From: Gemmatirosa kalamazoonensis
Lineage (GTDB): Bacteria > Gemmatimonadota > Gemmatimonadetes > Gemmatimonadales > Gemmatimonadaceae
Direction: 5' to 3'
DNA: 64,000 nucleotides
Assembly: GCF_000522985.1 (NCBI RefSeq)
Contig: NZ_CP007128.1
Span: 2,588,220 to 2,652,219, forward strand
Below the pieces are notes generated by a model. That model made no database searches, was not told the DNA's origin, and was given only the letters and a program-made list of their open reading frames with translations. Below, piece by piece: positions 3,433 to 24,982 of the stretch. Positions within the stretch are counted from its first letter, which is position 1. Each line of letters opens with the position of its first letter. The translations under genes and the position numbers were made by a program.

Positions 3433-3435
3433 CGC

Positions 3436-3715
3436 GCTGCGTGGCTGCGTGGCTGCGTGGCTGCGTGGCTGCGTGGCTGCGTGGCTGCGTGGCTGCGTGG
3501 CTGCGTGGCTGCGTGGCTGCGTGGCTGCGTGGCTGCGTGGCTGCGTGGCTGCGTGGCTGCGTGGCTGCGTGGCTGCGTGGCTGCGTGGCTGCGTGGCTGC
3601 GTGGCTGCGTGGCTGCGTGGCTGCGTGGCTGCGTGGCTGCGTGGCTGCGTGGCTGCGTGGCTGCGTGGCTGCGTGGCTGCGTGGCTGCGTGGCTGCGTGG
3701 CTGCGTGGCTGCGTG
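3436..3715. repeat. Perfect tandem array, 35 x GCTGCGTG
   Basis: Exactly 280 bp of the octamer GCTGCGTG repeat without a single mismatch. It starts four bases after the acetamidase stop codon. Because 8 is not a multiple of 3, the array reads as the same eight-residue peptide period in every forward frame with no stops, which creates long spurious open frames on both strands. Perfect identity points to recent expansion by slippage. It ends in the hairpin described next. Confidence 0.97.
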
Positions 3716-3752
3716 GGTGTCGGGACGTCACGCAGCCACGCAGCCACGCAGC
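3692..3752. terminator. Long hairpin between convergent genes, probable bidirectional terminator
   Basis: The last three octamers (3692-3715) are followed by 13 unpaired bases and then three exact inverted octamers CACGCAGC (3729-3752). This gives a perfect 24-bp stem. It ends two bases before the stop codon of the M28 peptidase gene and serves both convergent transcripts. There is no T-run, so action as a Rho-independent terminator is inferred from position and stem strength only. The array to its left looks like an expansion of its left arm. Confidence 0.7.
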
Positions 3753-8700: not shown

Positions 8701-9062
8701 CGCGCGCCCAGTACACGACGAACAACCCGAACCCGAAGTATCCGATCCTCGACATCAACGACACGTACAGCCGCGCCGTCAGCAGCTACTACGTGGAGAG
8801 CGGCTCGTACGTGCGGATGACGAACCTGCAGCTCGCGTGGGACGTGCCGCAGCGCTACGCGCGGTGGCTCGCGAGCGCGCGCGTCTACGTGCAGGCGGAG
8901 AACCTGTTCACGATCACCGGCTACAACGGCCTCGATCCCGCGCTTCCCGCCGCGAACGTGACCGGCGCCGCGGGCGACATCCGCGACCAGTACCGCGGCG
9001 TCGACCGCGGCTCGTATCCGAGCAGCCGCACCTTGAGCGTCGGCATCATCACCTCGTTCTAA
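5772..9062 (+). CDS. SusC/RagA-family TonB-dependent outer-membrane transporter, copy 1
   Basis: This is an outer-membrane beta-barrel that imports oligomers bound by its SusD partner, using TonB energy. It has a signal peptide of about 40 residues ending at QVAAQR, then a carboxypeptidase-D-like regulatory domain (VAGTVTSAGGAPLGGAQV to FIGFRPVEV). A TonB-box-like stretch EQVLVTGYT comes next, and the plug domain follows with SusC signatures SGSPGSRSTVRIRG, DPLYIVDGTPV and SSASIYGARASNGVV. The barrel ends in an aromatic residue (IITSF), as expected for BamA recognition. The length of 1096 residues is normal. The start is fixed by GGAGG six bases upstream. susD1 follows after 25 bp. It is closely similar to susC2 along its whole length. 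Confidence 0.95.
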   Translation: METMLLARQPRRGSRRFRLRTAGLGVALLGATALTSGQVAAQRIRVAGTVTSAGGAPLGGAQVRALGSDTAALTNAQGRYAITAPGNGTLQITFIGFRPVEVPINGRTTVDVSLERLAVLEQVLVTGYTQQRRAEITGAVATVNTQAVERQTTASVVQRLAGNVSGVQVEASGSPGSRSTVRIRGVSSFQNNDPLYIVDGTPVQDSYVNWLNADDVESVQVLKDASSASIYGARASNGVVIIETKKGRAGQGVSRATLRVRTGLATPVRGYDDILIQSPLDYFQVVKQSYLNAGYKLADIQSAVYGRNLYGDPNSPSVPQYIYCGSNTTCSNVDVSKYGYPNNLIVPGSAGTNWWKQVFGTGKVGDYNLDVAGGGVGNTYNLSFNYFDQIGTARFNRYQRGSIRVNTSFNRAKFFTGENIALSGDRGTGGLPNDPGGYAEDGILGKNVLMQPVIPVRDIQGNFASGKAQGLGNQSNPLKLAYEHRDDVGKNGRIFGSAFAGFDVTPKLNLRSTLGLNVGQGSFAGYSPPLPENSEPTFNNGINENNSSFQNFTWSNTARYSANRGPHTLGLLIGQEVIRGSSRFMTGSLGSLISTDIASRYIQDALGDASTKSVSSSGSRNALVSYFGKADYNLLDRYLVSFTVRRDGSSNLGRANRWGTFPAAGLGWRLSQEPFFPKDNAIFSDVRLRAGWGVTGNQQIPSGRIVSTFGGDRGDVYYDINGSNNSIVAGFRQTQLGNANLKWEENRSTNVGADLSLFRNNVDLVVDVWQRKTNNLLFDPRLPGTAGLAAPPIQNVGRMQNTGFDLSVGHRGASWSATLNGSHYKNKILAIGGSGDFFYGPIATRFGNQVINKIGQPIGAFYGYVADGFFKDAADVTASPKQDGAAPGRIKFRDTNGDGQITLADRTIIGSPHPDFTGGLDLTFRRGAFELGGTIFGTFGNKIFDVQKEFYVFRDFSTNVRKDLLANSWTPVDATVPRAQYTTNNPNPKYPILDINDTYSRAVSSYYVESGSYVRMTNLQLAWDVPQRYARWLASARVYVQAENLFTITGYNGLDPALPAANVTGAAGDIRDQYRGVDRGSYPSSRTLSVGIITSF

Positions 9063-9087
9063 CCGAGCGCCCACCAGGAGCGAGACG

Positions 9088-10869
9088 ATGAACATCTTCA
9101 CGAAGCATCCGGCGCTCTGTAGGACGGCGCTCGCGCTTGCCGCCGTGGCCATCACGTGGGGTTGCAAGGACCTGCTCGAGACGAGCGCAACGCCGCAGGG
9201 AGCGCTGAACGAATCGACGCTCGCGAACTTGACCGGTGTCGAGGGGAGCCTGATCGCCGCGTATCGTGCGCTCGATTGCACCGACTCGAACTTCGCGTTC
9301 GGCGGTTGCTCGGCCAGCAACTGGGGCCTGGGCAGCGTCCCGAGCGACGACGCGTACAAGGGCTCGGAGGCGCAGGACTTCCCCGACATGACCGACATCG
9401 AGAACTACCACTGGGGCTCGTCGGGCGTCGAGGGGATCCTGAACAACAAGTGGCAGCAGGTCTACGAAGGCGTCGTGCGGGCGAACTCCACGCTGCGTCT
9501 GCTGAAGGAAGTGCAGACCTCCAACCCGGCCGCCGTCAGCGCCGATGCCGCGAAGGGCATTCAGGGCGAGGCGATCTTCCTTCGGGCGCACTACCACTTC
9601 GAGGCGTGGCGCGTCTGGGGGAACATCGGGTACTACCGCGAGGACGACCACGACTTCCAGAAGCCGAACCTCACGAGCGACCAGGTCGCCGCGGAGCTCC
9701 TGAAGGATCTCGATCAGGCCATCTCGCTGCTTCTGTCCACGCCGCGCAACGGCCAGGTCGGTCGCGTCACGAGCTGGACGGCCAAAGCGTACAAGGGGCG
9801 CGTGCAGGCCTACGCGGGTCAGTGGGCCGAAGCGCTGAAGACGCTGCAGGACGTCAAGAACAACGGGCCGTACGCCCTGGAGCCGAGCTACGACCGCGTC
9901 TGGACCGGCTTCAAGGAGTTCGAGAACGGCAAGGAGACGATTCTCGCCTACCAGGCTTCCGCGAACGACGGCGATCCGAACGGGAACAACGCCAACACCG
10001 GCGAGCGGCTGAACTTCCCGCACTCGGGGAGCCACTTCGGCTGCTGCGGCTTCCACCAGCCGTCGCAGAATCTGGTGAACTTCTTCCAGGTCGACGCGAA
10101 CGGGCTCCCGCTATCGCTCTCGAGCCCGAGCACGTGGAACGCGCGCAACGACAACCTGGATGCGAAGGCCTCGGCCAACGTCGCGCTCGATCCTCGGCTG
10201 GATTGGACGGTCGGGCGCGACGGCGTCCCGTACAAGGACTGGGGACCGCACGACCCGACGTGGATCCGCGCCCCAGGCTTCTCGGGTCCGTACAGCCCGA
10301 AGAAGATGCAGCACGAGAAGGCCAGCGGCGCCGAGAGCAACGTGGGCTGGGTTCCCACGCAGCTCAACTCGGACAACATCCACCTCTACCGGTACGCCGA
10401 CCTGCTGCTGATGCTGGCCGAAGCGGAAGTGGAGTCGGGGTCGCTCGAGAACGCGCGGGCGATCGTGAATCAGATCCGCACGCGGGCCGGGGCGAAAGCG
10501 CAGGGGCCGGGCACCGACCGCGCGTCGATCGCCGTGCCGCTCAACGACCCGTCGATCACGTGGGCGAAGTACAAGGTCGGGCTGTACACGCAGCCGTGGA
10601 CCGACAAGAACGCGGCGCGCGACGCGGTCCGTACGGAGCGCCGGCTCGAGCTCGCGATGGAAGGGCAGCGCTTCTTCGACCTGCGGCGCTGGAAGATCGC
10701 CGAGCAGGTGCTGAACGCGTACGTGGCGGTGGAGAAGAACCGTCGCTCGTACATCGCCGCCGCGGAGCCGTTCACGTCGAGGCACCTCCTGTATCCCATC
10801 CCGCAGGTCCAGATCGAGCTGAGCAAGGCGGGATCGACCTCCAACCTGAAGCAGAATCCCGGGTGGTGA
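9088..10869 (+). CDS. SusD/RagB-family substrate-binding lipoprotein, copy 1
   Basis: This is the surface lipoprotein lid that binds the ligand for SusC1. The signal peptide ends in TWGC, with the lipid-bearing Cys at residue 26. TPR-like helices of the SusD fold follow, with family motifs GEAIFLRAHYHFEAWR, TSWTAKAYKGRVQAY, RYADLLLMLAEAEVE and, near the end, FFDLRRWK. It closes on KQNPGW, a common SusD terminus. Its 593 residues fit the family. AGGAG lies seven bases before the ATG. The shared NFPHSGSHFGCCGFHQP segment is identical in SusD2 and probably lines the binding site, which suggests that both pairs recognise related ligands. Confidence 0.95.
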   Translation: MNIFTKHPALCRTALALAAVAITWGCKDLLETSATPQGALNESTLANLTGVEGSLIAAYRALDCTDSNFAFGGCSASNWGLGSVPSDDAYKGSEAQDFPDMTDIENYHWGSSGVEGILNNKWQQVYEGVVRANSTLRLLKEVQTSNPAAVSADAAKGIQGEAIFLRAHYHFEAWRVWGNIGYYREDDHDFQKPNLTSDQVAAELLKDLDQAISLLLSTPRNGQVGRVTSWTAKAYKGRVQAYAGQWAEALKTLQDVKNNGPYALEPSYDRVWTGFKEFENGKETILAYQASANDGDPNGNNANTGERLNFPHSGSHFGCCGFHQPSQNLVNFFQVDANGLPLSLSSPSTWNARNDNLDAKASANVALDPRLDWTVGRDGVPYKDWGPHDPTWIRAPGFSGPYSPKKMQHEKASGAESNVGWVPTQLNSDNIHLYRYADLLLMLAEAEVESGSLENARAIVNQIRTRAGAKAQGPGTDRASIAVPLNDPSITWAKYKVGLYTQPWTDKNAARDAVRTERRLELAMEGQRFFDLRRWKIAEQVLNAYVAVEKNRRSYIAAAEPFTSRHLLYPIPQVQIELSKAGSTSNLKQNPGW

Positions 10870-10919
10870 TCGGCGCGGCGGCTGTCGCCGACGCCTAACG
10901 ATCGACAGCACGAATCGGC

Positions 10920-10954
10920 GGCCACCATCGTCCACGGTCCGGACGATGGTGGCC
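10920..10954 (+). terminator. Hairpin after susD1
   Basis: A perfect 14-bp stem (10920-10933 with 10941-10954) around a 7-base loop lies 50 bp after the susD1 stop. No T-tract follows, so it may be a processing or RNA-stabilising stem rather than a full intrinsic terminator. It sits at the same place, relative to susD, as the canonical terminator after susD2. Confidence 0.7.
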
Positions 10955-11135
10955 GTGTCGCGTACACCGCCCGCCCGTCGGTCGAGCCCGCGCACTCTCG
11001 GCTCCGAGCGGACCGAGTCGGCGGAGCGGTCGCGTATGTACACCGGCGTACCCACGGGTTGACGGGCGGCGCGCCCGTGAGCGGTGGGACGATCGCCGTC
11101 GTGGGGTGGTCGAACAGCGGGGCGTGACGCGCGCC
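10950..11135 (-). pseudogene. Relic of a second M28 peptidase gene (5' part, frameshifted and deleted)
   Basis: On the minus strand, two pieces match the intact M28 gene at 3755-5242. LFDHPTTAIVPPLTGAP corresponds to LFDHLTTVIGPRLTGSP of the intact protein. GTPVYIRDRSADSVR corresponds to GTPVYIGDLPPDSVR, and DGRAVYATRP in another frame corresponds to RGRIVLATRP. About 70 residues between the first two pieces are deleted and the reading frame is broken. The relic is divergent from susC2 exactly as the intact gene is divergent from susC1. The similarity was found by eye; an alignment would settle its limits. Confidence 0.8.
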
Positions 11136-11626
11136 ACGCCGATCGGCGCGCGGGAGTGACCGCTCGATCGGTGCCCGGGTCCCCGAGGAGATACGGTGCG
11201 CGTGCGAGGACGCGGCGGCATCTCGGCCTTCTTTACGCGTCCTTGACAACGATTGCACCGAGCGGAGATTCGCCTCGACCGTTGACAGAGTATCCCGGGG
11301 CCGCCCCGCTCGGGACGCGCGCCGCGAAGTCCGGGCAGCCGAAGTGGAGCCTCACGTCGCTGCCTGCGTCGCTGTCTGCGTCGCTGCGTCGCTCGGTCGT
11401 TCCCTGGTCCGTTAGGCACTTTCCCCCCGTGGTTGGAGGCTGACTCGATGACCCGTCTACGGCAGGCACCCCAGAGGCCGCCCCCCGGCATCGACCGGGC
11501 CCCCCCGCGACGACGACGCGTCGTCCTCGCCGCGTCGTCGTCGCACCGCTGACGGATTGTTAGGCAGGGCCTGTGGGCCACCGGACGCGCCCCAGGTCGA
11601 ACAGCTGCGCCACTGGGAGGATCGCC
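11136..11626 (+). other. Leader region of susC2, no gene seen
   Basis: It holds the start of the M28 relic's upstream flank, TTGACAAC at 11243-11250 (same as in the susC1 promoter, but with a poor -10), a second TTGACA at 11282-11287 and two GTTAGGC motifs (11411, 11559). A short imperfect run of CTGCGTCGCTG-type repeats lies at about 11354-11397. The bases just before the ATG (GGGAGGATCG) match those of susC1. No open frame here resembles a protein. Confidence 0.5.
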
Positions 11627-14600
11627 ATGGAGACGATGCTGTCTGGAAGACAAGCACGCTCGCACCGACGTCCTCACCGCCTGCTGTCCGGGTTGGTGAG
11701 CCTATTGCTTCTGCTGTGCGTGAGCGCCCCCGCGTTCGCCCAGCGCCTTCGCGTCACCGGCATCGTCACCTCGCAGGGCGGACAGCCCATCCGCGGGGTG
11801 CTCGTGCGCGTCGCCGACTCGGACTCCGGCACGACCACGAACGAGGCAGGCCGCTACACGGTCACCGCCCCGGCGAACGGGACGCTGCTGTTCACGGTCA
11901 TCGGCTACCGGCCGACCACCGCGCCGGTGAACAACCGCACGACGGTCGACGTGACGATGGAGCGCCTCGCCGTCCTCGAGCAGGTGCTCGTCACCGGCTA
12001 CACCGAGCAGCGCCGCTCCGAGGTCACCGGCGCCGTCGCGACGGTGAACACCCAGGCGCTCGAGCGGCAGAGCGGCGCGAGCGCGCTGCAGCGCCTCGCC
12101 GCGAACGCGCCCGGCATCACGGTCGAGAACAGCGGCTCGCCCGGCTCGCGCAGCACCGTGCGCATCCGCGGCATCAGCTCGTTCCAGAACAACGATCCGC
12201 TCTACATCATCGACGGGACGCCGGTCCAGGACTCGTACGTCAACTTCCTGAACCCGGACGACATCGAGTCGATCCAGGTGCTGAAGGACGCGTCGTCGGC
12301 CTCGATCTACGGCTCGCGCGCCAGCAACGGCGTGGTGATCATCGAGACCACGAAGCGCGGCGCGAACGGCCCGCCGCGCGCCCGCCTGCGCGTCCGCAGC
12401 GGCATCGCGACCCCGGTGCGCGGCTACGACGACATCGTCCTCACGAACGCGATCGACTACTTCAACGTCGTGAAGGCGAGCTACGTCAACGCGGGCTACA
12501 AGGTCTCCGATTTCCAGCAGGCCGTCTACGGGCGGAACCTGTACGGGGACCCGAACAACCCGCAGGTGCCGGCGTACATCTGGTGCGGCTCGAACACGTC
12601 GTGCACGAACGTCGACCCGTCGGCGTACAGCTACCCGAACAACCTGATCATGCCGGGCAGCGCCAACACCAACTGGTGGAAGGCGGTGTTCGGCACGGGC
12701 CACGTCGGCGACTACAACCTCGACGTCTCCGGCGCGGGCACCGGGCACACGTACGCCGTGTCGATGAACTACTTCGACCAGAAAGGAACGGCGGCGTACA
12801 ATCGGTATGATCGCGGCAGCGTGCGCGTGAACACGTCGTTCAACCGCAGCAAGTTCTTCGTCGGCGAGAACGTCGCGCTCTCCGGCGACCGCGCCAACGG
12901 CGGCGTCGGGAACGACGCGTTCGGCGAGGGCGGCATCCTCGGGAAGAACATCCTGTCGCAGCCGGTGGTGCCGATCTACGACATCAACGGCAACTTCGCG
13001 TCGGGCAAGGGGCAGGGGCTCGGGAACAACACCAACCCGCTCAAGTCCGCCTACGCGGCGCGCAACAACGTGTCGAAGAACGCCCGCATCTTCGGGAACG
13101 TGTACTCCGGGTTCGACGTCACGCCGAAGCTGAACCTGCGCACCCAGCTCGGCATCAACATGGGCCAGGGGTCGTTCAACGGCTTCAACGACATCACGCC
13201 CGAGAACTCCGAAGCGGTCTTCATCAACTCGATCAACGAGAACCAGAACTCCTTCACGAGCTGGACGTGGAGCAACACGGCGCGCTACTCGCTGTCGTAC
13301 AAGGCGAGCACGCTGAACCTCCTCGCCGGTCAGGAGGCGAACCGCGGCACGAGCCGGTTCATGAGCGGGTCGCTGAATGGCCTGATCAACACGAGCCTCG
13401 ACTCGCGCTACATCCAGGACGCGCTCGGTGACGCGAGCACGAAGAACGTCTCCAGCTCCGGCTCGCGCAACGCGCTGCTCTCGTATTTCGGCAAGGCCGA
13501 CTACACGCTGCTCGACCGCTACCAGCTCAGCTTCACGGTGCGGCGCGACGGGTCGTCGAACCTCGGGCCGGACAACCGGTGGGGCACGTTCCCGGCGTTC
13601 GGCGCCGGCTGGCGCCTTTCCGAGGAGCCGTTCCTGAAGGGGAACAACACGATCAGCGACATGCGCCTCCGCTTCGGCTGGGGCGTCACGGGCAACCAGC
13701 AGATCCCGTCGGGCCGCATCGTCTCGTCGTTCGGTGGCAGCCGCGGCGACACGTACTACGACATCGGCGGCAACAACACGTCGGTCGTCGCCGGCTTCCG
13801 GCAGACGGCGCTCGGCAACGCGAACCTGAAGTGGGAGGAGAACCGGTCGACGAACGTCGGTCTCGACCTCGGGCTCTTCAACCAGCTCGACGTCACGTTC
13901 GACGTCTACAAGCGCAACACGAACAACCTGCTGTTCGCGCCGCAGACCCCGGGCGCGGCCGGCATCGCGAGCCCGCCGATCGTCAACATCGGCGCGATCA
14001 AGAACACCGGGTTCGACTTCTCCGTCGGGCACCGCGCCACGAACTGGTCGGTCACGTTCAACGGCAGCCACTACAAGAACGAGATCGTCCGCATCGACGG
14101 CAACAGCACGTTCTTCTACGGCCCGAACGGCGAGCGCTTCGGCAACCCGGTCATCAACGAGATCGGCCAGCCGATCGGCGCGTTCTTCGGCTACAAGACC
14201 GCCGGCTTCTTCAAGGATGCGGCCGACGTGAAGAGCTGGGCGACGCAGGACGGCGCGGCGCCCGGACGCATCAAGTTCGTCGACACGAACGGCGACGGTA
14301 AGATCACGCTCGACGACCGCGTCGTCATCGGCACGCCGCACCCGAAGTTCACCGGCGGCCTCGATTTCACGGTGCGCCGCGGCGCGTTCGAGCTCGGGAG
14401 CACGGTCTACGGCACGTTCGGCAACAAGATCTTCGACATCCAGAAGCAGTGGTACATCTTCCGGAACTTCTCCACGGACGTGCGCAAGGATCTCCTCGCG
14501 AACTCGTGGACGCCGGTGGATCCGAGCGTGCCGCGCGACCAGTACACGACGAACAACCCGAACCCGAAGTATCCGATCCTCGACACGAACGACAACTTCA

Positions 14601-14893
14601 GCCACGCGCTGAGCGACTTCTACGTCGAGAACGGCTCCTACGTGCGGATGACGAACCTGCAGCTCGCGTGGGACGTGCCGCAGCGCTACGCGCGGTGGCT
14701 CCAGAACGCGCGCGTGTACGTGCAGGGTGAGAACCTGTTCACGATCACCGGCTACAACGGCCTCGATCCGGCACTCGCGCCGGTCGCGACGAGCGGTGCC
14801 GCCGGCGACATCCGCGACCAGTACCGCGGCGTCGATCGTGGCACGTATCCGTCGAGCCGCATCTTCAGCTTCGGCATCATCACCTCGTTCTAA
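11627..14893 (+). CDS. SusC/RagA-family TonB-dependent outer-membrane transporter, copy 2
   Basis: Paralogue of susC1 with the same order: signal peptide ending in SAPAFAQR, carboxypeptidase-D-like domain, EQVLVTGYT, plug with SGSPGSRSTVRIRG and DPLYIIDGTPV, and a long barrel ending in IITSF. It has 1088 residues. The start ATG at 11627 is chosen over an in-frame codon 54 bases earlier because GGGAGG lies six bases before it and the next residues (METML) match SusC1. Divergence from copy 1 is spread along the gene and is greatest in the signal peptide and in parts of the barrel loops. Together with susD2 it forms a two-gene operon ending at the strong terminator at 16732. Confidence 0.95.
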   Translation: METMLSGRQARSHRRPHRLLSGLVSLLLLLCVSAPAFAQRLRVTGIVTSQGGQPIRGVLVRVADSDSGTTTNEAGRYTVTAPANGTLLFTVIGYRPTTAPVNNRTTVDVTMERLAVLEQVLVTGYTEQRRSEVTGAVATVNTQALERQSGASALQRLAANAPGITVENSGSPGSRSTVRIRGISSFQNNDPLYIIDGTPVQDSYVNFLNPDDIESIQVLKDASSASIYGSRASNGVVIIETTKRGANGPPRARLRVRSGIATPVRGYDDIVLTNAIDYFNVVKASYVNAGYKVSDFQQAVYGRNLYGDPNNPQVPAYIWCGSNTSCTNVDPSAYSYPNNLIMPGSANTNWWKAVFGTGHVGDYNLDVSGAGTGHTYAVSMNYFDQKGTAAYNRYDRGSVRVNTSFNRSKFFVGENVALSGDRANGGVGNDAFGEGGILGKNILSQPVVPIYDINGNFASGKGQGLGNNTNPLKSAYAARNNVSKNARIFGNVYSGFDVTPKLNLRTQLGINMGQGSFNGFNDITPENSEAVFINSINENQNSFTSWTWSNTARYSLSYKASTLNLLAGQEANRGTSRFMSGSLNGLINTSLDSRYIQDALGDASTKNVSSSGSRNALLSYFGKADYTLLDRYQLSFTVRRDGSSNLGPDNRWGTFPAFGAGWRLSEEPFLKGNNTISDMRLRFGWGVTGNQQIPSGRIVSSFGGSRGDTYYDIGGNNTSVVAGFRQTALGNANLKWEENRSTNVGLDLGLFNQLDVTFDVYKRNTNNLLFAPQTPGAAGIASPPIVNIGAIKNTGFDFSVGHRATNWSVTFNGSHYKNEIVRIDGNSTFFYGPNGERFGNPVINEIGQPIGAFFGYKTAGFFKDAADVKSWATQDGAAPGRIKFVDTNGDGKITLDDRVVIGTPHPKFTGGLDFTVRRGAFELGSTVYGTFGNKIFDIQKQWYIFRNFSTDVRKDLLANSWTPVDPSVPRDQYTTNNPNPKYPILDTNDNFSHALSDFYVENGSYVRMTNLQLAWDVPQRYARWLQNARVYVQGENLFTITGYNGLDPALAPVATSGAAGDIRDQYRGVDRGTYPSSRIFSFGIITSF

Positions 14894-14920
14894 CCGAGCG
14901 CCGACACCAGGAGCGAGACG

Positions 14921-16699
14921 ATGAATCGCAAAAAGCAACGAGTGGTGTTGTTCACGGCGCTCACGGTCCTCTCCGCGGCCGGCGTGTACGGCTGCAAGGA
15001 CTTCCTGAGTGCCGCCTCTTCGCCGCAGGGCACGCTGAACGCGGCCACGCTCACCAACAAGACGGGCGTCGAGGGCAGCCTCATCGCCGCGTATCGCACG
15101 CTGGACTGCACCAACAGCGACAACGGCAACTGGGGGTGCGCCGCCAGCAACTGGGTGTGGGGGAGCGTCACCAGCGACGACGCGTACAAGGGCTCCGAGG
15201 CCAGCGACCAGCCCGAGGTCACCGACATCGAGCTGTATCACTGGGGCACCGCGAACTCCGAGTCCTACCTGAACGTCAAGTGGCGCGCGATGTACGAGGG
15301 GGTCAACCGCGCGAACGCGACGATCCGTCTGCTGAAGGACGTCCAGAAGTCGAACCCGAGCGCGCTCCCCGCCGCCGAGGCGAAGAGCGTCGAGGGTGAG
15401 GCACTCTTCCTCCGCGCCCACTACCACTTCGAGGCGTGGGAGATGTGGGGGAGCATCCCCTACTACCGCGAGACCGACACCGACTTCCGCAAGCCGGCCG
15501 AGGCGAGCGACGCGGTGATCGCCGACATCCTCAAGGATCTCGACGCGGCCATCGCGCTGCTCCCCGCCACGCCGTGGAACGGGCAGGTGGGGCGCGCCAC
15601 GAGCTGGACGGCGAAGGCCTACAAGGGTCGCGTCCAGGTCTACGCGGGCCAGTACGCGGCGGGGCTGGCCACGCTGCGCGACGTGCGGGCCAGCGGGCCG
15701 TACGCGCTCGAGTCGAGCCTCGACCGCGTGTGGACGGGCTTCAAGCAGTACGAGAACGGCAAGGAGACGATCCTCGCGTTCCAGGCGTCGGTGAACGACG
15801 GCGAGGGCGACGCGGCGAACTCGAACTACGGCGAGCGGCTCAACTTCCCGCACTCGGGGAGCCACTTCGGCTGCTGCGGCTTCCACCAGCCGTCGCAGAC
15901 GCTCGTGAACCACTACCGCGTCGACGCGAACGGGCTGCCGCTCGCGCTTTCCGACCCGAACGGCTACAACAACGCCGACGCCACGTTCACGGCGGCCGTG
16001 TCGAAGAACGTCGCCGTCGACCCGCGCCTCGACTGGACGGTCGGGCGTGACGGCGTGCCGTACAAGGACTGGGGCCCGCACGATCCGTCGTGGATCCGCG
16101 CGCCCGGCTACGGCGGCCCGTACAGCCCGAAGAAGAACGTCCACGAGAAGGCGAGCGGCTCCGAGGCCAGCGTGGGCTGGGCGCCGGCGCAGCAGAACGG
16201 CGTCAACATCCACATCTACCGCTACGCCGACCTGCTGCTGCTGCTGGCCGAGGCGGAGGTCGAGGCCGGGTCGCTCGAGAACGCGCGCGCGATCGTGAAC
16301 CAGATCCGCCAGCGCGCCGCGGCCGGCGTGCAGGGTCCGGGCACCGACGCGAGCACGATCTCGGTGCCGATCAACGACTCGCGCATCACGTGGGCGAAGT
16401 ACCAGGTCGGCCAGTACACCGCGCCGTGGACGAACCAGCAGCAGGCCCGCGACGCGGTGCGCGAGGAGCGCAACCTCGAGCTGGCGATGGAGGGGCACCG
16501 CTTCTTCGACCTGCGCCGGTGGAAGATCGCCGACCAGGTGATGAACGCGTACCTCGCGAAGGAGAAGACGCGCCGGACGTACCTCGCGGCCGCGGAGCCG
16601 GTGGCAGCGCGCCACCAGCTCTATCCGATCCCGAACATCCAGATCCAGCTCAGCAAGGTGAACGGCGCCGAGACGCTGAAGCAGAACCCGGGCTGGTGA
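14921..16699 (+). CDS. SusD/RagB-family substrate-binding lipoprotein, copy 2
   Basis: This is the surface lipoprotein partner of SusC2. The signal peptide ends in VYGC, followed by KDFLSAASSPQGTLN, close to the SusD1 equivalent. Family motifs are GEALFLRAHYHFEAWE, TSWTAKAYKGRVQVY, RYADLLLLLAEAEVE, FFDLRRWK and terminal KQNPGW. It has 592 residues. AGGAG is positioned before the ATG as in susD1. The SGSHFGCCGFHQPSQ segment is conserved with SusD1. The intergenic distance from susC2 is 27 bp. The ligand is not deducible; the neighbouring GH20 enzyme suggests N-acetylhexosamine-containing glycans. Confidence 0.95.
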   Translation: MNRKKQRVVLFTALTVLSAAGVYGCKDFLSAASSPQGTLNAATLTNKTGVEGSLIAAYRTLDCTNSDNGNWGCAASNWVWGSVTSDDAYKGSEASDQPEVTDIELYHWGTANSESYLNVKWRAMYEGVNRANATIRLLKDVQKSNPSALPAAEAKSVEGEALFLRAHYHFEAWEMWGSIPYYRETDTDFRKPAEASDAVIADILKDLDAAIALLPATPWNGQVGRATSWTAKAYKGRVQVYAGQYAAGLATLRDVRASGPYALESSLDRVWTGFKQYENGKETILAFQASVNDGEGDAANSNYGERLNFPHSGSHFGCCGFHQPSQTLVNHYRVDANGLPLALSDPNGYNNADATFTAAVSKNVAVDPRLDWTVGRDGVPYKDWGPHDPSWIRAPGYGGPYSPKKNVHEKASGSEASVGWAPAQQNGVNIHIYRYADLLLLLAEAEVEAGSLENARAIVNQIRQRAAAGVQGPGTDASTISVPINDSRITWAKYQVGQYTAPWTNQQQARDAVREERNLELAMEGHRFFDLRRWKIADQVMNAYLAKEKTRRTYLAAAEPVAARHQLYPIPNIQIQLSKVNGAETLKQNPGW

Positions 16700-16731
16700 T
16701 CCCGTAGCTCGGCACGTAAGGTCGTAAGGTC

Positions 16732-16777
16732 ACGGCGGCCATCACCGAGCAGTCCGGCGATGGCCGCCGTGCTTTTT
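16732..16777 (+). terminator. Intrinsic terminator of susC2-susD2
   Basis: A 12-bp stem (16732-16743 with 16759-16770), which can extend inward past one mismatch by three more pairs, is followed at once by GC and then TTTTT (16773-16777). It is the clearest Rho-independent terminator in the window. A small direct repeat GTAAGGTC lies just before it. The GH20 gene starts 46 bp later and so probably has its own promoter or depends on read-through. Confidence 0.9.
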
Positions 16778-16822
16778 CCCGTCATGGACCATCGCCTCCA
16801 CCTCGCCGCACCTTCGCACCGC

Positions 16823-18541
16823 ATGCCCCGCACCCGTCACGCACTCGCTTCGTTAGGCGCCGTCGTCGCGCTCGCGGCGTGCAGCTCCGCGCTCGTGCCG
16901 ACGCCGCCGCCGCGCACCGCGCCCACCCCGCCACCCGCGCGACCGGCGGGGCCGCCGCCCGCGCCGAACCCCAACGACCCGAACCGGATCCCGCTCCAGG
17001 GGCAGGCACCGATCGCCACGCTCGGCGTGCACCGCATCGTGCCGGCGCCGGTCTCGGTGACCGCGGACTCCGGGGCGCCGTTCACGGTGACGCGCGCCAC
17101 GACGATCGTCGTGCCGGCGGCGAACGCGGACGCGGAGCGCGTCGGGCACATGCTCGCCGCGCTGCTCCGGCCGTCCACCGGCTTCCCGATCACCGTGAGC
17201 GCGGCCGGCGGCGCGGTGCCTAACGGTTCCGTCGTGCTGCGGCTCGACGGCGCGGCGGACCTCGGCGCCGAGGGGTACACGGTGCAGGTCGCGGCCGACT
17301 CGGTGCGCCTCACGGCGTCGAACCCCGCGGGGCTGTTCTACGCCGTGCAGACGCTGCGGCAGCTGCTGCCGGCGGCCGTCGAGTCGGAGCTGAGCGGCAA
17401 CTTCCGCCCCGCGGCGTGGAGCGTGCCCGCGGGACGCATCACCGACCGGCCGCGCTTCGCGTGGCGCGGCGCGATGCTCGACGTGGCGCGCCACTTCTTC
17501 ACCGTCGACGAGGTGAAGCAGCTCGTCGACATCCTCGCGCTCTACAAGCTCAATACGCTGCACCTCCACCTGACCGACGATCAGGGATGGCGCATCCAGA
17601 TCCGTCGGCGGCCGCGGCTCACCCAGGTCGGCGGGAGCAGCGAGGTGGGCGGCGGCCCGGGCGGCTTCTACACGCAGGCGGACTACGCCGACATCGTGCG
17701 CTACGCGCAGGACCGCTTCGTGACCGTGGTGCCGGAGATCGACATGCCGGCGCACATCCACTCGGCGATCGTCGCGTACCCGGAGCTCGGCTGCGGGCGG
17801 CAGATCCCGGACACGTCGCTCAACGCGCCGATCCAGGGGCTCTACGTCGGCACGCGCGTCGGCTTCAGCGCGCTGTGCTACGACAAGAAGTCGACGTACG
17901 ACTTCGTCGACGACGTCGTGCGCGAGCTCGCGGCGATGACCCCCGGGCCGTTCCTCCACCTCGGCGGCGACGAGGTGGCGGTGCTGAACCACGCGCAGTA
18001 CGCGTACTTCGTGGAGCGCGTGCAGGAGATCGTGCGGCGTCACGGCAAGCGCATGGTCGGATGGGACGAGATCGGGCAGGCGAAGCTGCTCCCGGGCACG
18101 ATCGCGCAGATGTGGCGCATGGACACGACGATGGCCGCGGTGAAGCAGGGCGCGAAGCTCGTCATGTCGCCCGCGGCGAACGCGTACCTCGACATGAAGT
18201 ACACGCCGGCGACCGAGACGGGGCTGCGGTGGGCGGCGTTCGTGGAGCTGCGCAACGCCTACGACTGGGATCCGGTGACGCGCTTCCCGCACGTCACGGA
18301 GAGCGACGTGCTCGGCGTCGAGGGGCCACTCTGGTCGGAGACGGTCATGAACATCACCGCCGCCGAGTACCTCATCATGCCGCGGCTTCCCGCGCTCGCC
18401 GAAGTGGCGTGGACGCCGCAGTCGTCGCGCGACTGGGAGAGCTTCCGCCAGCGCATCGCCGGACACGCGACGCGCTGGCGGTACCTCGGGATCAATTTCT
18501 TCCCGTCCCCGCAGGTGCCGTGGGAGCCCTCGGTGCCGTAG
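16823..18541 (+). CDS. GH20 beta-N-acetylhexosaminidase lipoprotein
   Basis: It removes terminal N-acetylglucosamine or N-acetylgalactosamine by substrate-assisted catalysis. It has a lipoprotein signal ending in LAAC and a Pro-rich linker (residues about 25-60), then the GH20b-like N-terminal domain and a TIM barrel. Barrel motifs are WRGAMLDVARHFF, LHLHLTDDQGWR, VPEIDMPAH and HLGGDEV, with the catalytic pair Asp383-Glu384. It has 572 residues from the chosen ATG. An in-frame ATG further upstream (16760) lies inside the preceding terminator stem, so 16823, which opens a clean signal peptide, is preferred. Its last 50 bases overlap the end of the convergent FG-GAP gene. Confidence 0.92.
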   Translation: MPRTRHALASLGAVVALAACSSALVPTPPPRTAPTPPPARPAGPPPAPNPNDPNRIPLQGQAPIATLGVHRIVPAPVSVTADSGAPFTVTRATTIVVPAANADAERVGHMLAALLRPSTGFPITVSAAGGAVPNGSVVLRLDGAADLGAEGYTVQVAADSVRLTASNPAGLFYAVQTLRQLLPAAVESELSGNFRPAAWSVPAGRITDRPRFAWRGAMLDVARHFFTVDEVKQLVDILALYKLNTLHLHLTDDQGWRIQIRRRPRLTQVGGSSEVGGGPGGFYTQADYADIVRYAQDRFVTVVPEIDMPAHIHSAIVAYPELGCGRQIPDTSLNAPIQGLYVGTRVGFSALCYDKKSTYDFVDDVVRELAAMTPGPFLHLGGDEVAVLNHAQYAYFVERVQEIVRRHGKRMVGWDEIGQAKLLPGTIAQMWRMDTTMAAVKQGAKLVMSPAANAYLDMKYTPATETGLRWAAFVELRNAYDWDPVTRFPHVTESDVLGVEGPLWSETVMNITAAEYLIMPRLPALAEVAWTPQSSRDWESFRQRIAGHATRWRYLGINFFPSPQVPWEPSVP

Positions 18542-21500
18542 CTACCTGCGCGTGCGCCGCGTGCGGCGCGGCGCGGAACAGCAGCGGCTGGTCGTCGTTC
18601 CGCGCCACCACGTACGCGGCGCCCGAGCGGGTGCGTAGACGCGCGATGTCGCGCACCTGCCCAGGCGCCATGAAGCCACTCTCCGACGCGCGCACCGGCG
18701 TGAAGTGGCCCGCGCCATCGCCGCGCAGCAGCAGCCCGTAGCTCGCCGCGGCGCGCCCGATCTCCGGCTTGAAGCCGTCGAAGTTGCCGCCGAGGAGCAG
18801 GTCCGTCTTGCCGTCGCCGTCCACGTCGGCCGCGGCGATGCCGTACACGGTGGACACCTGCGCCTCGCGCGGCAGCGGCACGAGCGTGAACCGCCCATCG
18901 CCGTCGTTGTGCACGAGCACCGACGCGAACGTGCGCGCCGTGCGCACGAGCGCCGTGGACAGCTCCGCCGGCGTGAAGATGGAGTCGACGGTGGCGCTCG
19001 CGTACTTCTCGTAGGTCAGGTAGCGCGCCTTCAGCGGCGGGATGGCCCGGATCAGATCGTCGCGAAGCGGCAGCGGCCACCGCTTGCCCTGGTGCCAGTA
19101 CGTCACGACCTGCTCGGCGAAGCCGTTCTTGTCGAAGTCGGCGACGTACATCGTCACCGGCTGCGCGTCGGTCGCCTGCAGGCGCGTGTTGAGCCCCAGA
19201 TTGCCGACGACGAAGTCGACGCGGCCGTCGCCGTCGAAGTCGCCGGCCACGATGCGGTTCCACCAGCCCTCGGTGTTCGCGAGCCCCGGCACGGCGAGCG
19301 GCGCGAGCCGTCCGCCGCCGGCGTTGCGGAACACCGTGATCGGCATCCACTCGCCGACGACCACGAGGTCCGGCTTGCCGTCGCGGTCGACGTCCTGCCA
19401 CACCGCGTCCGTCACCATGCCGACGTGCGCGAGCTGCGGTGCGAGCCGCTCGGTGACGTCGGTGAAATGTCCGGTGCCGTCGTTCTGCAGCAGCATCGAG
19501 CGCGGCGCCTCGCCGTAGTGGCCGGGGACCACGCGCCCGCCCACGAACAGATCGAGATCGCCGTCGCCGTCGTAATCGATCGCGACGACGTGCGAGCCGG
19601 CGTTCGTCTCCGGCGGCAGCGCGTCAGGCGGCGCCTTGCGGAATTTCCCGTGCCCGACGTTGAGGTAGAGACGGTCCTGCAGCGCGGGCGCCCCCTCGGG
19701 GAAGTCGCTGCCGCCGCTCACGACGTACAGGTCGGGCTTTCCGTCGCCGTTCGCGTCGAAGAACAGCGCGCCGACGTCCTCCGACGCGGCGTCCGCCTCG
19801 AACAGCGCCGAGTCGCTCGGCACGAAGCGACCGTCGGGGCGCTGGAGCAGGAGGCGCCCGGCGCGATCCTTCGCGCCGCCGAGGTACACGTCGTCGAGAC
19901 CGTCGCCGTCGACGTCGCCCACCGCGAGTGCCGGCCCTTCGGTGGAGAGCAGGCGCGGCATCAGCCGCTCGCGGTCGAAGTCGACGAACTCGTTCTCGCG
20001 GTGGCGGAACGGCAGCGCGAGCGTGTCCGCCTCCGCCACGAGCACGGGGGCGCGCGGCGGCGTGGCGAGCGGACGCGCGGGCGTACGCGCGGGCGTTCGC
20101 TCGCCGGCGCGCGCGTCGGCGTGGCGCATCGTTAGGCGGCGGTCGGCGGCGGCGCCGGCGAGCGTCGAGACACGGCCGTCGGGCCATTCGACGGTGAGCG
20201 TGTCGACGACGGCGTGGGGGCCGAGGCCGAACGTGAGCACCGGGTCGACGCTGGACTGGAAGCCGCGCGTCGCGAACGCCTCCTGCACGAGCTGCTCACC
20301 GCCCACGCGCAGCGTGACGCGCGCGCCGACGCCGAACCGGTTCTGCCCCTCGCCGTCGAGGCGCACCTGCAGGAAGTGGTTCTCCTTGTGCAGCGTGCGC
20401 GCGTTGTTGCGGTAGACGAACGCCTCGCCGTCGGTGTTGTTCACCACGAGGTCGGGCGCGCCGTCGCCGTCGAGATCACCGTACGCCGCGCCGTTCGAGA
20501 AGCTCGGCGTGTCGAGGCCCCAGGCGGCGGCCTGCTCGGTGAACGACAGGCCACCCTCGTTGTGGAAGACCGCGTTCGGGATCGGCGTCTGCGGCATCGC
20601 CTTCGTGAGCGCCATGTAGTCGGTGCCGGGGCGCGGACCGCCTGTGGGCCGCGCCGGCATGCGCGCCTGCTCGTTCGCCTGGAACGCGATGAAGTCCTGC
20701 GACGTCGCGTCGCGCGCGAGGCCGTTCGTCACGAAGATGTCCTTGCGTCCATCGAGGTCGAGATCCTCGATGAGCGCCGTCCAGCTCCAGTCCGTGCGCG
20801 CGACGCCCGCCATCTGCCCGACGTCGCTGAACGTGCCGTCGCCGTTGTTTTGCTGCAGCATGTCGCGCATGAGCTGGTGGTGGTACCCGTGCCGCACCTT
20901 CGACTGGTAGATGTCCCACCCGTCGAACGCGGACGTGGTACGCAGCCGGTGCTCGTCCGACGGCAGCATGTCGGTCGTGTAGACGTCGGGCCAGCCGTCG
21001 TTGTCGACGTCGGCGATGTCGAGCCCCATGGAGAACTGGCTCAGCACCGGCATGGCCTTGTCGAGCTGCTCGTCGAACGTGCCGTCGCCCTTGTTGACGT
21101 ACAGGTAGTCGCGCTCGAAGAAGTCGTTCGAGATGTAGACGTCGGGCCACCCGTCGCGGTTCACGTCGCCGACGGCGATGCCCAGGCCGAACGCGTTCTC
21201 CGGGCTGAAGATGCCGGCGCGCTCGGTGACCTCGGTGAACCGGCCGCCATCGTTCCGGTACAGCTTCGCGCCGCCGTATTTGTCCGGCGTCATGCGCGCG
21301 TAGAAGATGCCGAACCCGGTGACCGGGCGCGGCGAGTTGTTGATGACGAGGAGATCGAGGTCGCCGTCGCGATCGTAGTCGAAGAACGCGGCCTGCGTGG
21401 ACCATCCCTCGTCGGCGACGCCGTACTCCTTCGCACGCTCGGTGAAGTGGGGCACGCTGTCGGAGCCGGCGCCCTCGTTGATCCACAGCTCGTTCGCGCG

Positions 21501-21989
21501 GCGCGCGGGCGCCCCCGGGCCGGCCTTCGAGACGTAGATGTCGAGCCGTCCGTCGCCGTTCACGTCGGCGAACGTGACGCCCGTCGTCCACGCGTCGGCG
21601 GCGCTCTTCAGCCCCGACTTCGCGGTGACGTCGCGGAACTGGAACTTCCCCTCGTTGAGGTAGAGCCGCGGGCCGCCCTGGTTCGCCGTGAGCACGACCT
21701 CGGGGAGGCCGTCGCCGGTGAGGTCGCCGATCGCGACGCCGCCGCCGTTGTAGAAGTTGCGGTAGACGAAGACGTTCAGCTCGGGCGACTCGACGACCCG
21801 GTTCTCGAACCGGACGCCGGTATAGCTCGACGGGAGCCGGGTGAAGAGCCGGCCGTCGACGGGCGGCAGCGAGCCGCGGTGAACCACTTCGGGGGAGCCG
21901 CACGCCGCGGCGAGGGCGGCGGTGGCGAGGAGCAGCGCGCGGACGCGCGTGATCGGACGGACGAACCGGGAGTGCTGCCGGAGAGACAT
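18492..21989 (-). CDS. FG-GAP/VCBS-repeat lipoprotein with ASPIC-UnbV domain
   Basis: This is a large cell-surface protein of about 1165 residues. It has a lipoprotein signal ending in LAAAC. Many beta-propeller-type repeats follow with calcium-loop motifs of the form DxDxDGxxD, for example DVNGDGRLD, DYDRDGDLD, DVDNDGWPD, DLDLDGRKD, DVDGDGLDD and DFDGDGRVD; about a dozen are visible in two groups. Between the groups lies an ASPIC/UnbV domain (NRFGVGARVTLRVGG to TVEWPDGR). Such proteins often accompany SusCD loci and probably bind calcium and glycans or proteins at the surface; no enzyme activity is evident. The ATG at 21989 is chosen over an upstream in-frame codon because it opens directly into the signal peptide. 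Confidence 0.9.
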   Translation of the reverse strand: MSLRQHSRFVRPITRVRALLLATAALAAACGSPEVVHRGSLPPVDGRLFTRLPSSYTGVRFENRVVESPELNVFVYRNFYNGGGVAIGDLTGDGLPEVVLTANQGGPRLYLNEGKFQFRDVTAKSGLKSAADAWTTGVTFADVNGDGRLDIYVSKAGPGAPARRANELWINEGAGSDSVPHFTERAKEYGVADEGWSTQAAFFDYDRDGDLDLLVINNSPRPVTGFGIFYARMTPDKYGGAKLYRNDGGRFTEVTERAGIFSPENAFGLGIAVGDVNRDGWPDVYISNDFFERDYLYVNKGDGTFDEQLDKAMPVLSQFSMGLDIADVDNDGWPDVYTTDMLPSDEHRLRTTSAFDGWDIYQSKVRHGYHHQLMRDMLQQNNGDGTFSDVGQMAGVARTDWSWTALIEDLDLDGRKDIFVTNGLARDATSQDFIAFQANEQARMPARPTGGPRPGTDYMALTKAMPQTPIPNAVFHNEGGLSFTEQAAAWGLDTPSFSNGAAYGDLDGDGAPDLVVNNTDGEAFVYRNNARTLHKENHFLQVRLDGEGQNRFGVGARVTLRVGGEQLVQEAFATRGFQSSVDPVLTFGLGPHAVVDTLTVEWPDGRVSTLAGAAADRRLTMRHADARAGERTPARTPARPLATPPRAPVLVAEADTLALPFRHRENEFVDFDRERLMPRLLSTEGPALAVGDVDGDGLDDVYLGGAKDRAGRLLLQRPDGRFVPSDSALFEADAASEDVGALFFDANGDGKPDLYVVSGGSDFPEGAPALQDRLYLNVGHGKFRKAPPDALPPETNAGSHVVAIDYDGDGDLDLFVGGRVVPGHYGEAPRSMLLQNDGTGHFTDVTERLAPQLAHVGMVTDAVWQDVDRDGKPDLVVVGEWMPITVFRNAGGGRLAPLAVPGLANTEGWWNRIVAGDFDGDGRVDFVVGNLGLNTRLQATDAQPVTMYVADFDKNGFAEQVVTYWHQGKRWPLPLRDDLIRAIPPLKARYLTYEKYASATVDSIFTPAELSTALVRTARTFASVLVHNDGDGRFTLVPLPREAQVSTVYGIAAADVDGDGKTDLLLGGNFDGFKPEIGRAAASYGLLLRGDGAGHFTPVRASESGFMAPGQVRDIARLRTRSGAAYVVARNDDQPLLFRAAPHAAHAQVATAPRAPTAPAGTGRN

Positions 21990-22139: not shown

Positions 22140-22171
22140 GCCGACTCACCAAGTCATCGGATGACTTTGCG

Positions 22172-24982
22172 ATGCCGCCGCGTGTTCTCTCCTGCACGAT
22201 CCCGATCGTCCTCGCTGTGGCGCCGCTCGCCGCGCAGCAGCCGTCGCCGTCGGCGACGCTCGAGCTGCGCAACCACCACGAGCTTCCCTACCGGGGACCG
22301 GTGGAGCTGCGCGTCGACCTGCCCGACGGCCTCTATCGCGGCGACCACGCCGTCGCCGTCGTCCGCGGCGACACCGCCCGCATCGTGGCCGACCTATCGC
22401 CGAAGAGCGCGCTGCGCCTCGCCCGCGTCGGTCCGGCGCCGACCGGCGCGGAGCCGTTCGGCGGCCCGCTCGCCGTGACCACCAGCGGCCCGCGCGTCTC
22501 CCTGGCGTGGGACGGCCGCGAGCTCGGCACCCTCGACCTGGGCCTCGTCGTCGTCCCCGGCACGACCGCGGACGCCGACACCGCCGAGCGTCGCTTCGCG
22601 CCGCTGCCGGTGACGTGGACACGCGACGCCGACGGTACGCTGCGCGCGAGCGCGGAGCAGGACGGTTATCGCGTGGCGCTCACGCTCGCGGCGTACGGCG
22701 GCGGGTGGGTCGACGCGCGCGCACAGCTCACGCGCATCGCGCCGCGCGGCGAGAAGGCGTACGTCGCGCTCGTGCGGCGCCTCACCACGCCCGGCGCCCA
22801 CGACGCGCGCATGCGCTTCAACGGACGCGTCGTCGCCGGCGACCGCGAGCCCGACGCGTGGGACCGCGACTTCTGGTACACGCGCGCCGTGGACTGGACG
22901 GCGTGGCGCGCGGGCGACCTGTCGCTGCTCGCGGTGAACGGCTTCACGCCGGTGCCGACGATCCGCGCGCCGAAGGGCGACTGGAACGAGGGCAGCCACT
23001 TCTACGTGTGGGAGCGCGCGCGCCGCGATGGCGACCGCGTCGACCTGGTCTCCGAGATCGAGGGGCCCAACGCGAAGCAGGCGCAGCGCGGCGCGATGGC
23101 CGTCACCCCGTACGCGCCGATCGAGCAGGGCGACTCGCTCGTGCTGCGGTGGCGGCTCGCCGTCGCGCCGCAGCCGGCGACGGGCTGGGAGGAGAGCCAG
23201 CTGCGCGGGTTCACCGGCTACCGCACGGCGACCCGCGCCGGCACCGCGTCGGCGGTCGCGGACCTCGGCGTGCCGTACGTGACGTTCGGCACCGCGTACT
23301 TCCCGTACTCCACGCTGGCGGAGAACCTCGACTTCTATCGCACGCCGGGGCTCGACCGCGAGACGTTCTGGGGCATCTCGCCGAAGATGTGGGCGAACTG
23401 GCGCGCGTACGCGCCGCGCATGAAGAGCGACCTGCGCATCGCGCGCGCGATGGGCTTCGACGTCATCCGGCTGCATCACGTGGAGCTGCTCCAGTCGCTC
23501 GACCGCCCGCAGGCGCTCGCGTTCCTCGACTTCTTCACGGGCGAGCTGCGTACGTTGGGCCTGCGGCTCATGCTCGACACCGAGGGACCCACGGACTGGA
23601 TCACGACCGTGGTGGAGCGCTACCGCGACGTGCTCACGCGCGTGGAGCTGGAGAACGAGATCCTCATCGACGGCGTGACGCCGGCGCGCCCCGCGCGGTG
23701 GACGGCCGAGTACCGCGCGGCGAAGGCCGCGGCGCCGAACGCGCAGGTGTTCCTCACGAGCGCCGGCAACCACGGCCAGCTCGAGCGCGCCGCGGCGCTC
23801 GGCGTGCCGTTCGACCGCGTGGGGCTGCACGCGTACAAGCACGGGCCCCAGTGGATGGAGACGTACTCGTCGCACATGCTCGGCGCGGCCGACGTCGCGC
23901 ACGCACACGGCACCGCGGTCACGCTCGGAGAGTTCAACTGGAAGAACCTCACCGAGCTCGCGCCCGACTCGCAGCGCATCGCGGCCCGCGACGTGTACGA
24001 GACGGTGCTCGGCCCGCGCGCGATCCCGGAGGTCATCGAGTTCCAGTTCCACGAGACGCTCACGTTCAACCCCGCGATCAGCGGCACGAACACCCGCCAC
24101 TACGAGCCGCTCGCGCTCGACCGGCGGCTGAAGGTCTCGGGCGAGGAGTTCGAGCGCGTCATCCGCGAGTACGGCCGCCCCGACGCCGCCGTGCGCCTGC
24201 TGCCGACGACGGTGCGCGAGGCGCGGCTGACGAACGGCGCGGCGACGGCGGAGTTCACGGTGACCAACGCGAGCGACCGTGCCCGCACCGTGACGCTCGC
24301 GCCGGAAGCGTACGACGGGCTCACCACGCGGCTGCTCACACCGTCGCGCGTGACGCTGCGCCCGGGCGAGACGCACACCGGCCGCGTGGCGATCCGCCTG
24401 TCGACGGGCGCGATGCCGGGCACGTATCACCACTTCGTGCGCGTGACGTACGACGAAGGCACGCACTACGGCTGGGGCGTGGTGTCGAACCCCGGCGTGC
24501 CGACGTTCGCCGCGCCGGTGCTCGGCGAGCGCGTGAGCTACCCGCAGGGCGCCGACGTCGTGCGGCGCGCGGGGTGGACGCGGCCGCTCGCCGTGACGTT
24601 CGCCGACGACGCGACGGCGCTGGAGCTGGAGTCGGCCTACCAGGTGGCCGGCACGCTGCAGGCGGCGACGGGCGTGCCCGTGTGGCTGTCGCGCGCGAGC
24701 GATCTGCCCGACTCGCTGCGCGCCCGCGGCCTGGTCGTCGCGTTAGGCACCGCGCCGGGCGTCGCGGAGGCGAAGCACGGCGTCGTGCGGCTCGACGAGT
24801 CGGGCGGCGCCCAGCGGCTGCTGCTCACCGGCATCGACAAGGACGGCGTGCACGCGGCGGCGGCGGAGCTGATGCTGCGCTTCTGGCCGAACGCGAAGGA
24901 CGCCGCGATGCGGCTCACGGGCAAGGAGCCGGGCAACGCGCTCGGCCACCCGGCGATGATCACGAATCCCAACCCGCCGTGA
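22172..24982 (+). CDS. Secreted TIM-barrel glycoside hydrolase-like protein of unassigned family
   Basis: An exported protein of 936 residues with a signal peptide ending in PLAAQQ. Residues about 25-380 look like beta-sandwich modules. The central part resembles a clan-A (beta/alpha)8 glycosidase: RLHHVELLQSLD, then ENEILIDG with Asn495-Glu496 at the usual acid/base position, and TLGEFNWKN with Glu587 at the usual nucleophile position. A C-terminal half with NPCBM- or CARDB-like beta domains follows (VTNASDRARTVTL, LRPGETHTGRV). I do not recognise a specific CAZy family. The start at 22172 is set by the promoter and signal peptide. It is divergent from the FG-GAP gene, with 182 bp between them. 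Confidence 0.72.
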   Translation: MPPRVLSCTIPIVLAVAPLAAQQPSPSATLELRNHHELPYRGPVELRVDLPDGLYRGDHAVAVVRGDTARIVADLSPKSALRLARVGPAPTGAEPFGGPLAVTTSGPRVSLAWDGRELGTLDLGLVVVPGTTADADTAERRFAPLPVTWTRDADGTLRASAEQDGYRVALTLAAYGGGWVDARAQLTRIAPRGEKAYVALVRRLTTPGAHDARMRFNGRVVAGDREPDAWDRDFWYTRAVDWTAWRAGDLSLLAVNGFTPVPTIRAPKGDWNEGSHFYVWERARRDGDRVDLVSEIEGPNAKQAQRGAMAVTPYAPIEQGDSLVLRWRLAVAPQPATGWEESQLRGFTGYRTATRAGTASAVADLGVPYVTFGTAYFPYSTLAENLDFYRTPGLDRETFWGISPKMWANWRAYAPRMKSDLRIARAMGFDVIRLHHVELLQSLDRPQALAFLDFFTGELRTLGLRLMLDTEGPTDWITTVVERYRDVLTRVELENEILIDGVTPARPARWTAEYRAAKAAAPNAQVFLTSAGNHGQLERAAALGVPFDRVGLHAYKHGPQWMETYSSHMLGAADVAHAHGTAVTLGEFNWKNLTELAPDSQRIAARDVYETVLGPRAIPEVIEFQFHETLTFNPAISGTNTRHYEPLALDRRLKVSGEEFERVIREYGRPDAAVRLLPTTVREARLTNGAATAEFTVTNASDRARTVTLAPEAYDGLTTRLLTPSRVTLRPGETHTGRVAIRLSTGAMPGTYHHFVRVTYDEGTHYGWGVVSNPGVPTFAAPVLGERVSYPQGADVVRRAGWTRPLAVTFADDATALELESAYQVAGTLQAATGVPVWLSRASDLPDSLRARGLVVALGTAPGVAEAKHGVVRLDESGGAQRLLLTGIDKDGVHAAAAELMLRFWPNAKDAAMRLTGKEPGNALGHPAMITNPNPP

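Follow-up and report, generated by a model that had tools for sequence, protein, structure and literature searches.

The closest described counterparts of the protein considered here are families GH5 (PF00150) and GH10 (PF00331) of clan GH-A, and with GH5 it appears to share an Arg on strand 2, Asn-Glu on strand 4, His-x-Tyr on strand 6 and Gly-Glu-Phe on strand 7. The nearest described regulators are UxuR and ExuR, which are FCD-type GntR uronate regulators, and the nearest gene arrangement is the SusC/SusD-type polysaccharide utilization locus. Against these we set a gene from a 64,000-nucleotide stretch of the Gemmatirosa kalamazoonensis genome (the window), the features of which are collected in Table 1. 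A fold prediction, a residue match, conserved synteny and a pair of operators were computed, and we consider it likely that the gene encodes a displaced clan GH-A glycosidase, outside the curated families, of a GntR-controlled locus for a glucuronate-containing glycan. The clan itself is ordinary in its working, the family is unassigned and the regulon is well supported.

Table 1 Features of the glycosidase gene and its upstream site (window positions).
Feature	Position	Strand	Remarks
Palindrome AAGTCATCGGATGACTT, predicted FCD-type GntR operator	22151..22167		Ends 4 bases before ATG
Predicted exported clan GH-A glycosidase gene (P0001)	22172..24982	+	Intact ORF, 936 aa + stop
Signal-peptide-like start, about residues 1-22	22172..22237	+	Read from the sequence by eye
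N-terminal beta-rich region, residues 27-355	22250..23236	+	Strands in full-length model, moderate confidence
Predicted catalytic (beta/alpha)8 barrel, residues 356-682	23237..24217	+	Model of residues 356-775, VIA-align, hhalign
Glu496 codon, predicted acid/base	23657..23659	+	Invariant in 8/8; aligned with the Glu of Asn-Glu in GH5/GH10
Glu587 codon, predicted nucleophile	23930..23932	+	Invariant in 8/8; aligned with the strand-7 Glu of GH5 (VGEFG)/GH10 (TELD)
Ig-like domain, residues 683-775	24218..24496	+	Model pLDDT mostly >90; weak Pfam Ig-type matches
C-terminal alpha/beta stretch, residues 776-936	24497..24979	+	Secondary structure in full-length model; weak BcsB match

Gene, domains and distribution of the family

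A longer alternative frame opens at GTG 21995, but the ATG at 22172 is preferred because the signal-peptide-like sequence begins there and because the palindrome lies inside the longer frame. Judged by its sequence the protein is probably exported, and its cellular place is probably the periplasm. The first-pass annotation had remarked on large flanking domains, and these are indeed present: the beta-rich N-terminal part spans about 330 residues, and the barrel is followed by an Ig-like domain and then by an alpha/beta stretch at the C-terminus. Weak Pfam matches fall on the last two, to FixG_C on the Ig-like domain (4 of the 8 family members, best E 0.00098) and to BcsB on the C-terminal stretch (2 of 8, best E 0.0031).

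Searches of 179 genomes of the organism's own taxonomic family found full-length homologues as 8 genes in 7 genomes, including the window's own, with one genome (G397) contributing two. The eight sequences have 936-1010 residues, the relatives are 51-58% identical to the window protein, and all seven fall within the Gemmatimonadaceae. A single-sequence search of the phylum matched 4 of 395 genomes, and seven of the 11 genomes matched in a profile search gave short weak matches. A match in an eighth genome, G421, was excluded from the family (74 residues only, containing stops), as were the N-terminal-region matches in L012 and L016, which were read as beta-propeller/amidohydrolase proteins. 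L002, a contig of a 'Gemmatimonadetes bacterium' MAG, is the same as G397:C259 in reverse complement, and L024 and L002, likewise reverse complements of each other, are counted once. Distribution beyond the Gemmatimonadota was probed by six exact peptide patterns: in a collection of 84,980 species they matched 15 stretches, one of them a relative. A plasmid search for relatives gave no match, and no literature on this glycosidase family was among the matches listed.

Predicted barrel and predicted catalytic residues

The absence of a recognised family, claimed from the first reading, holds for Pfam, NCBIfam and PDB sequences. No Pfam glycosidase matched the window protein at E up to 10 or any of the 8 members at E up to 1, the profiles for GH5 and GH10 gave no significant match to either the window protein or the eight members, and the only Pfam matches of the window protein were three sub-threshold ones, Ig-like or unrelated. 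As a single-sequence query the protein matched neither an NCBIfam model nor a PDB sequence with an E value of 10 or less. Profiles of the N-terminal and C-terminal regions reached best E values of 0.5 and 0.32 against the PDB, which we regard as chance.

An AlphaFold2 model of residues 356-775, made from 8 sequences (pLDDT 74.5, pTM 0.80), predicts a TIM barrel, as the first reading had supposed, with eight strands alternating with helices, followed by the Ig-like domain; parts of this model (261-294) have pLDDT below 50. The full-length model, made from 5 sequences, is of moderate quality (pLDDT 59.9, pTM 0.45). In VIA-align, the best 50 of 997 chains aligned with the 356-775 model were GH5_18/GH5, GH1, GH39 and GH113-type enzymes, which we take to be members of clan GH-A, at Z 18.3-19.9, the top among the matches listed having Z 19.9 and an rmsd of 3.4 over 262 residues. 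Foldseek gave low TM-scores (0.42 with an rmsd of 16.5 in the top row), with non-clan folds also among the matches listed; GH157 and GH158 PDB chains are present in its list and absent from the profile sequence search of the PDB. With the full-length model, unrelated barrels (PdxJ) reached Z 14.9, against a best of 17.3. On these models the fold alone would indicate a barrel, and it is the residue pattern that would narrow it to clan GH-A.

That pattern is where it had been placed from the letters alone. Glu496 closes the triplet E494-N495-E496 in ENEILIDG, Glu587 follows T584-L585-G586 in TLGEFNWKN, and the two are 91 residues apart. In the model of the barrel, strand 4 comprises model residues 133-138 and strand 7 residues 227-235, so that Glu496 (model 141), which follows an Asn, lies just beyond strand 4 and Glu587 (model 232) within strand 7; model and alignments thus agree with the clan GH-A pattern proposed earlier. 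All eight sequences share R433, H435, H436, D469, E471, E494, N495, E496, H553, Y555, K556, H557, E587, N589 and K591. We caution that Glu conservation by itself is weak evidence, because 11 of the 23 Glu in the barrel region are invariant across the 8 sequences; position and fold decide.

An hhalign comparison of the eight-sequence barrel profile with GH10 (18 sequences) and GH5 (16 sequences) gave probabilities of 93.2% and 92.5%, compared with 0.10-1.07% for controls (GH20, UroD, GH115, UxuA, UxaC and SDR), 0.13% for DUF4838 and 20.6% for GH2 (4 sequences). In the GH5 alignment R433 falls on the strand-2 Arg, N495-E496 on the Asn-Glu of YNEP, H553 and Y555 on His-x-Tyr, and E587 on the Glu of VGEF; in the GH10 alignment E496 falls on the Glu of VNEA and E587 on that of TELD. 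The aligned positions are presumably the catalytic and family residues of GH5 and GH10. The profiles used 18 of 28 GH10 rows and 16 of 20 GH5 rows, leaving out weak rows (L075, L076, L086 and L104-L107) and seven further GH10 rows (L079-L084 and L087). Size-matched draws of three sequences were uneven (22.7-90.3% for GH10, 1.5-88.7% for GH5), and with single sequences the values often fell to control level and were at most 76%; the outcome varies with profile depth but favours clan GH-A, as far as such profiles can tell.

An alternative interpretation places the protein, as a far-diverged member, within a clan GH-A family already described, be it GH5, GH10 or one of the CAZy families that have no Pfam model; it would then amount only to a new subfamily. 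The hhalign probabilities of about 93% to both families, with the catalytic residues in register, speak for this, as do matches of the family profile to two xylanases in an hmmsearch of PDB sequences, which are partial and weak (E 0.012 and 0.022; the remaining match is a channel protein). We nevertheless consider it unlikely, though the strongest of the alternatives, because no Pfam glycosidase matches any of the eight members at E up to 1 and because GH5 and GH10 score alike, which is in keeping with a branch of its own within the clan.

A predicted shared operator and the locus on contig C3

With as many as 3 mismatches allowed, the AAGTCATCGGATGACTT site is the only one in the window, where 0.05 would be expected, and in the 7.48 Mb genome AAGTCATCNGATGACTT occurs at two places, both exact, with none further at up to 3 mismatches; a reversed-pattern control over the same genome gave 0 sites. 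One site lies 4 bases before the glycosidase ATG and the other 6 bases before a gntR gene on contig C3, and through this shared palindrome the window gene is linked with the C3 locus. At all eight family loci there is a site with at most one mismatch to AAGTCATNNNATGACTT (6 exact, 2 with one mismatch). Six relative genomes contain 12 sites at that tolerance, 7 of which precede family genes or operons; the five others (G396 C185, C237 and C317; G411 C536; G126 C11) have neighbours without a coherent picture, and a UxuA-like frame, recognised by reading, adjoins the G396 C317 site. A looser pattern adds 3-mismatch sites at window position 17888 and in L008. No literature on this palindrome was among the matches listed. 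As judged from these sites, a GntR regulon that would join the window gene and the C3 locus through repressor binding is well supported.

The gene order in relatives accords with conserved synteny. A gntR gene lies directly upstream of the family gene in 6 of the 7 relatives, often with an overlap of 1-4 bases, the window and L026 being the two family loci without an adjacent gntR. Directly downstream, all seven relatives have a SusC-like frame by reading (two broken frames in L026, truncated by the contig end in L002), followed by SusD in six, the L002 contig ending first. By Pfam, L006, L007 and L008 have GntR and FCD domains, three relatives have GH2 and two have DUF4838. Contig C3 of the window genome carries gntR, SusC, SusD, DUF4838 and GH2 genes and lacks this glycosidase gene: at the place that it occupies in relatives, gntR and SusC are only 88 bases apart. 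The loci of five of the seven relatives were compared with C3 by BLAST and all match: GntR is 56-66% identical, SusC 53-73%, SusD 59-74%, DUF4838 49-56% and GH2 54-70%. SusC/SusD thus stand beside the family gene in five relatives by BLAST and in the other two by reading, but not at the window site.

DUF4838 looks like a constant partner (by Pfam in L006, L027 and the C3 locus, L030; by BLAST in L025), and a single paper mentioning it was found. A corrinoid methyltransferase cluster (L031:6556-12743; G000:C3:924555-930742) adjoins the C3 locus and has genes for a URO-D/MtaA-like methyltransferase, a B12-binding corrinoid protein, an activase-like protein and a homocysteine methyltransferase-like protein; speculatively, its substrate could be a methylated sugar, for instance 4-O-methyl-glucuronate, from which it would remove the methyl group.

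The first-pass annotation had instead connected the gene with the SusCD/GH20 block that it borders, and cooperation with that block on N-acetylated glycans is the second alternative. The block (5772-18541) lies on the same strand, with one opposite-strand FG-GAP gene between, but its two SusC proteins are only 28-30% identical (BLAST) to the SusC beside the family gene in five relatives, whereas the C3 SusC is orthologous to them, and the only two copies of the operator precede the glycosidase gene and the C3 locus. On the strength of the operator and of how far SusC and SusD have diverged, we reject this partnership, which we hold to be very improbable. The clan GH-A pattern, the predicted barrel and the lack of a recognised family therefore stand from the earlier interpretation, and the link to the block and the N-acetylated substrate drawn from it do not.

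Three observations concern the surroundings of the gene. The block itself, two tandem SusC/SusD pairs followed by GH20 on the plus strand, is a separate, putative N-acetylhexosamine locus. The FG-GAP/UnbV_ASPIC protein (1165 aa, 18492-21989, minus strand) is encoded divergently from the glycosidase gene, and its gene starts about 160 bases from the palindrome and may share the operator. At 2374-3747 a short tandem repeat, which reads as 'AATQPRSH' many times in a minus-strand frame, is probably an intergenic repeat array.

Substrate, role and comparison with known systems

D-mannonate oxidoreductase genes score above the NCBIfam cut-off at the C3 locus and in G093, as does a glucuronate isomerase gene in G093; mannonate dehydratase-like genes in G126 and G093 are below the cut-off. 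A GH115 gene lies about 2 kb from gntR in G093, and the window genome has two glucuronate isomerase genes, both away from the C3 locus. A glucuronate-bearing glycan fits as the target of the locus, and the evidence points to such glycans in place of N-acetylated ones; the dehydratase scores and the position of the isomerase genes count against this. The enzyme is likely to act in the periplasm as an exo-enzyme that trims imported oligosaccharides. As to activity, beta-glucuronidase is our single best guess, a tentative one that we would expect to be wrong rather oftener than right; it is a speculation that the invariant basic residues R433, K556, H557, K591, R642 and H643 could hold a carboxylate.

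Under the favoured reading, a retaining clan GH-A glycosidase is probable: the exported, probably periplasmic enzyme would cleave a beta-glycosidic bond with retention, with Glu587 on strand 7 as the nucleophile and Glu496 at the end of strand 4 as the acid/base, and with Arg433, Asn495, His553 and Tyr555 in what would be their usual supporting places in the clan. By descent and regulation the gene would belong to a polysaccharide locus under a GntR repressor of the FCD type with AAGTCATCNGATGACTT as its binding site, in which SusC/SusD would import oligosaccharides, the GH2 and DUF4838 proteins would break down the glucuronate-containing glycan, and the released uronate would enter the fructuronate-mannonate route; in the window genome the gene may have moved out of the locus and kept its operator. 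That the protein has kept the fold without being catalytic, and instead binds glycans or serves as a scaffold, as its large accessory domains might suggest, is hard to credit given that six positions matching supporting and catalytic residues of GH5 are invariant in all eight members.

We lean, by a small measure, towards seeing in these proteins the first members of a new clan GH-A family, so far of one taxonomic family of the Gemmatimonadota, specific for glucuronate-containing glycans and part of a split regulon in which an operator in trans would keep the relocated gene connected with its locus. Intact clan GH-A machinery without a curated model would make them immediate candidates for a CAZy family of their own, and since the conserved locus and the operator predict the substrate class, the regulator and the partner enzymes, activity is testable on a short list of glycans. 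The physical neighbourhood is misleading here, and it was the predicted binding site of the regulator that recovered what appear to be the true partners.

Measured against the described systems, the protein resembles GH5 in the residues set out at the beginning and in the presence of GH5_18 structures near the top among the VIA-align matches listed, but it differs in having no Pfam match, in its strand-3 and strand-8 residues (by reading) and in the large beta region before the barrel and the domains after it. With GH10 it shares the highest hhalign probability, both Glu in register and PDB matches labelled xylanase, although those matches are partial and weak and, again, Pfam gives none. The regulator is like UxuR/ExuR in its GntR and FCD domains and in the D-mannonate and glucuronate genes nearby, whereas its palindrome and its set of targets differ. 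The order in relatives (gntR, glycosidase, SusC, SusD, glycosidases) is that of a SusC/SusD-type polysaccharide utilization locus; unlike such a locus, it is predicted to be under FCD-GntR control, and in the window genome the enzyme gene stands apart from the locus and appears to be joined to it by the operator.
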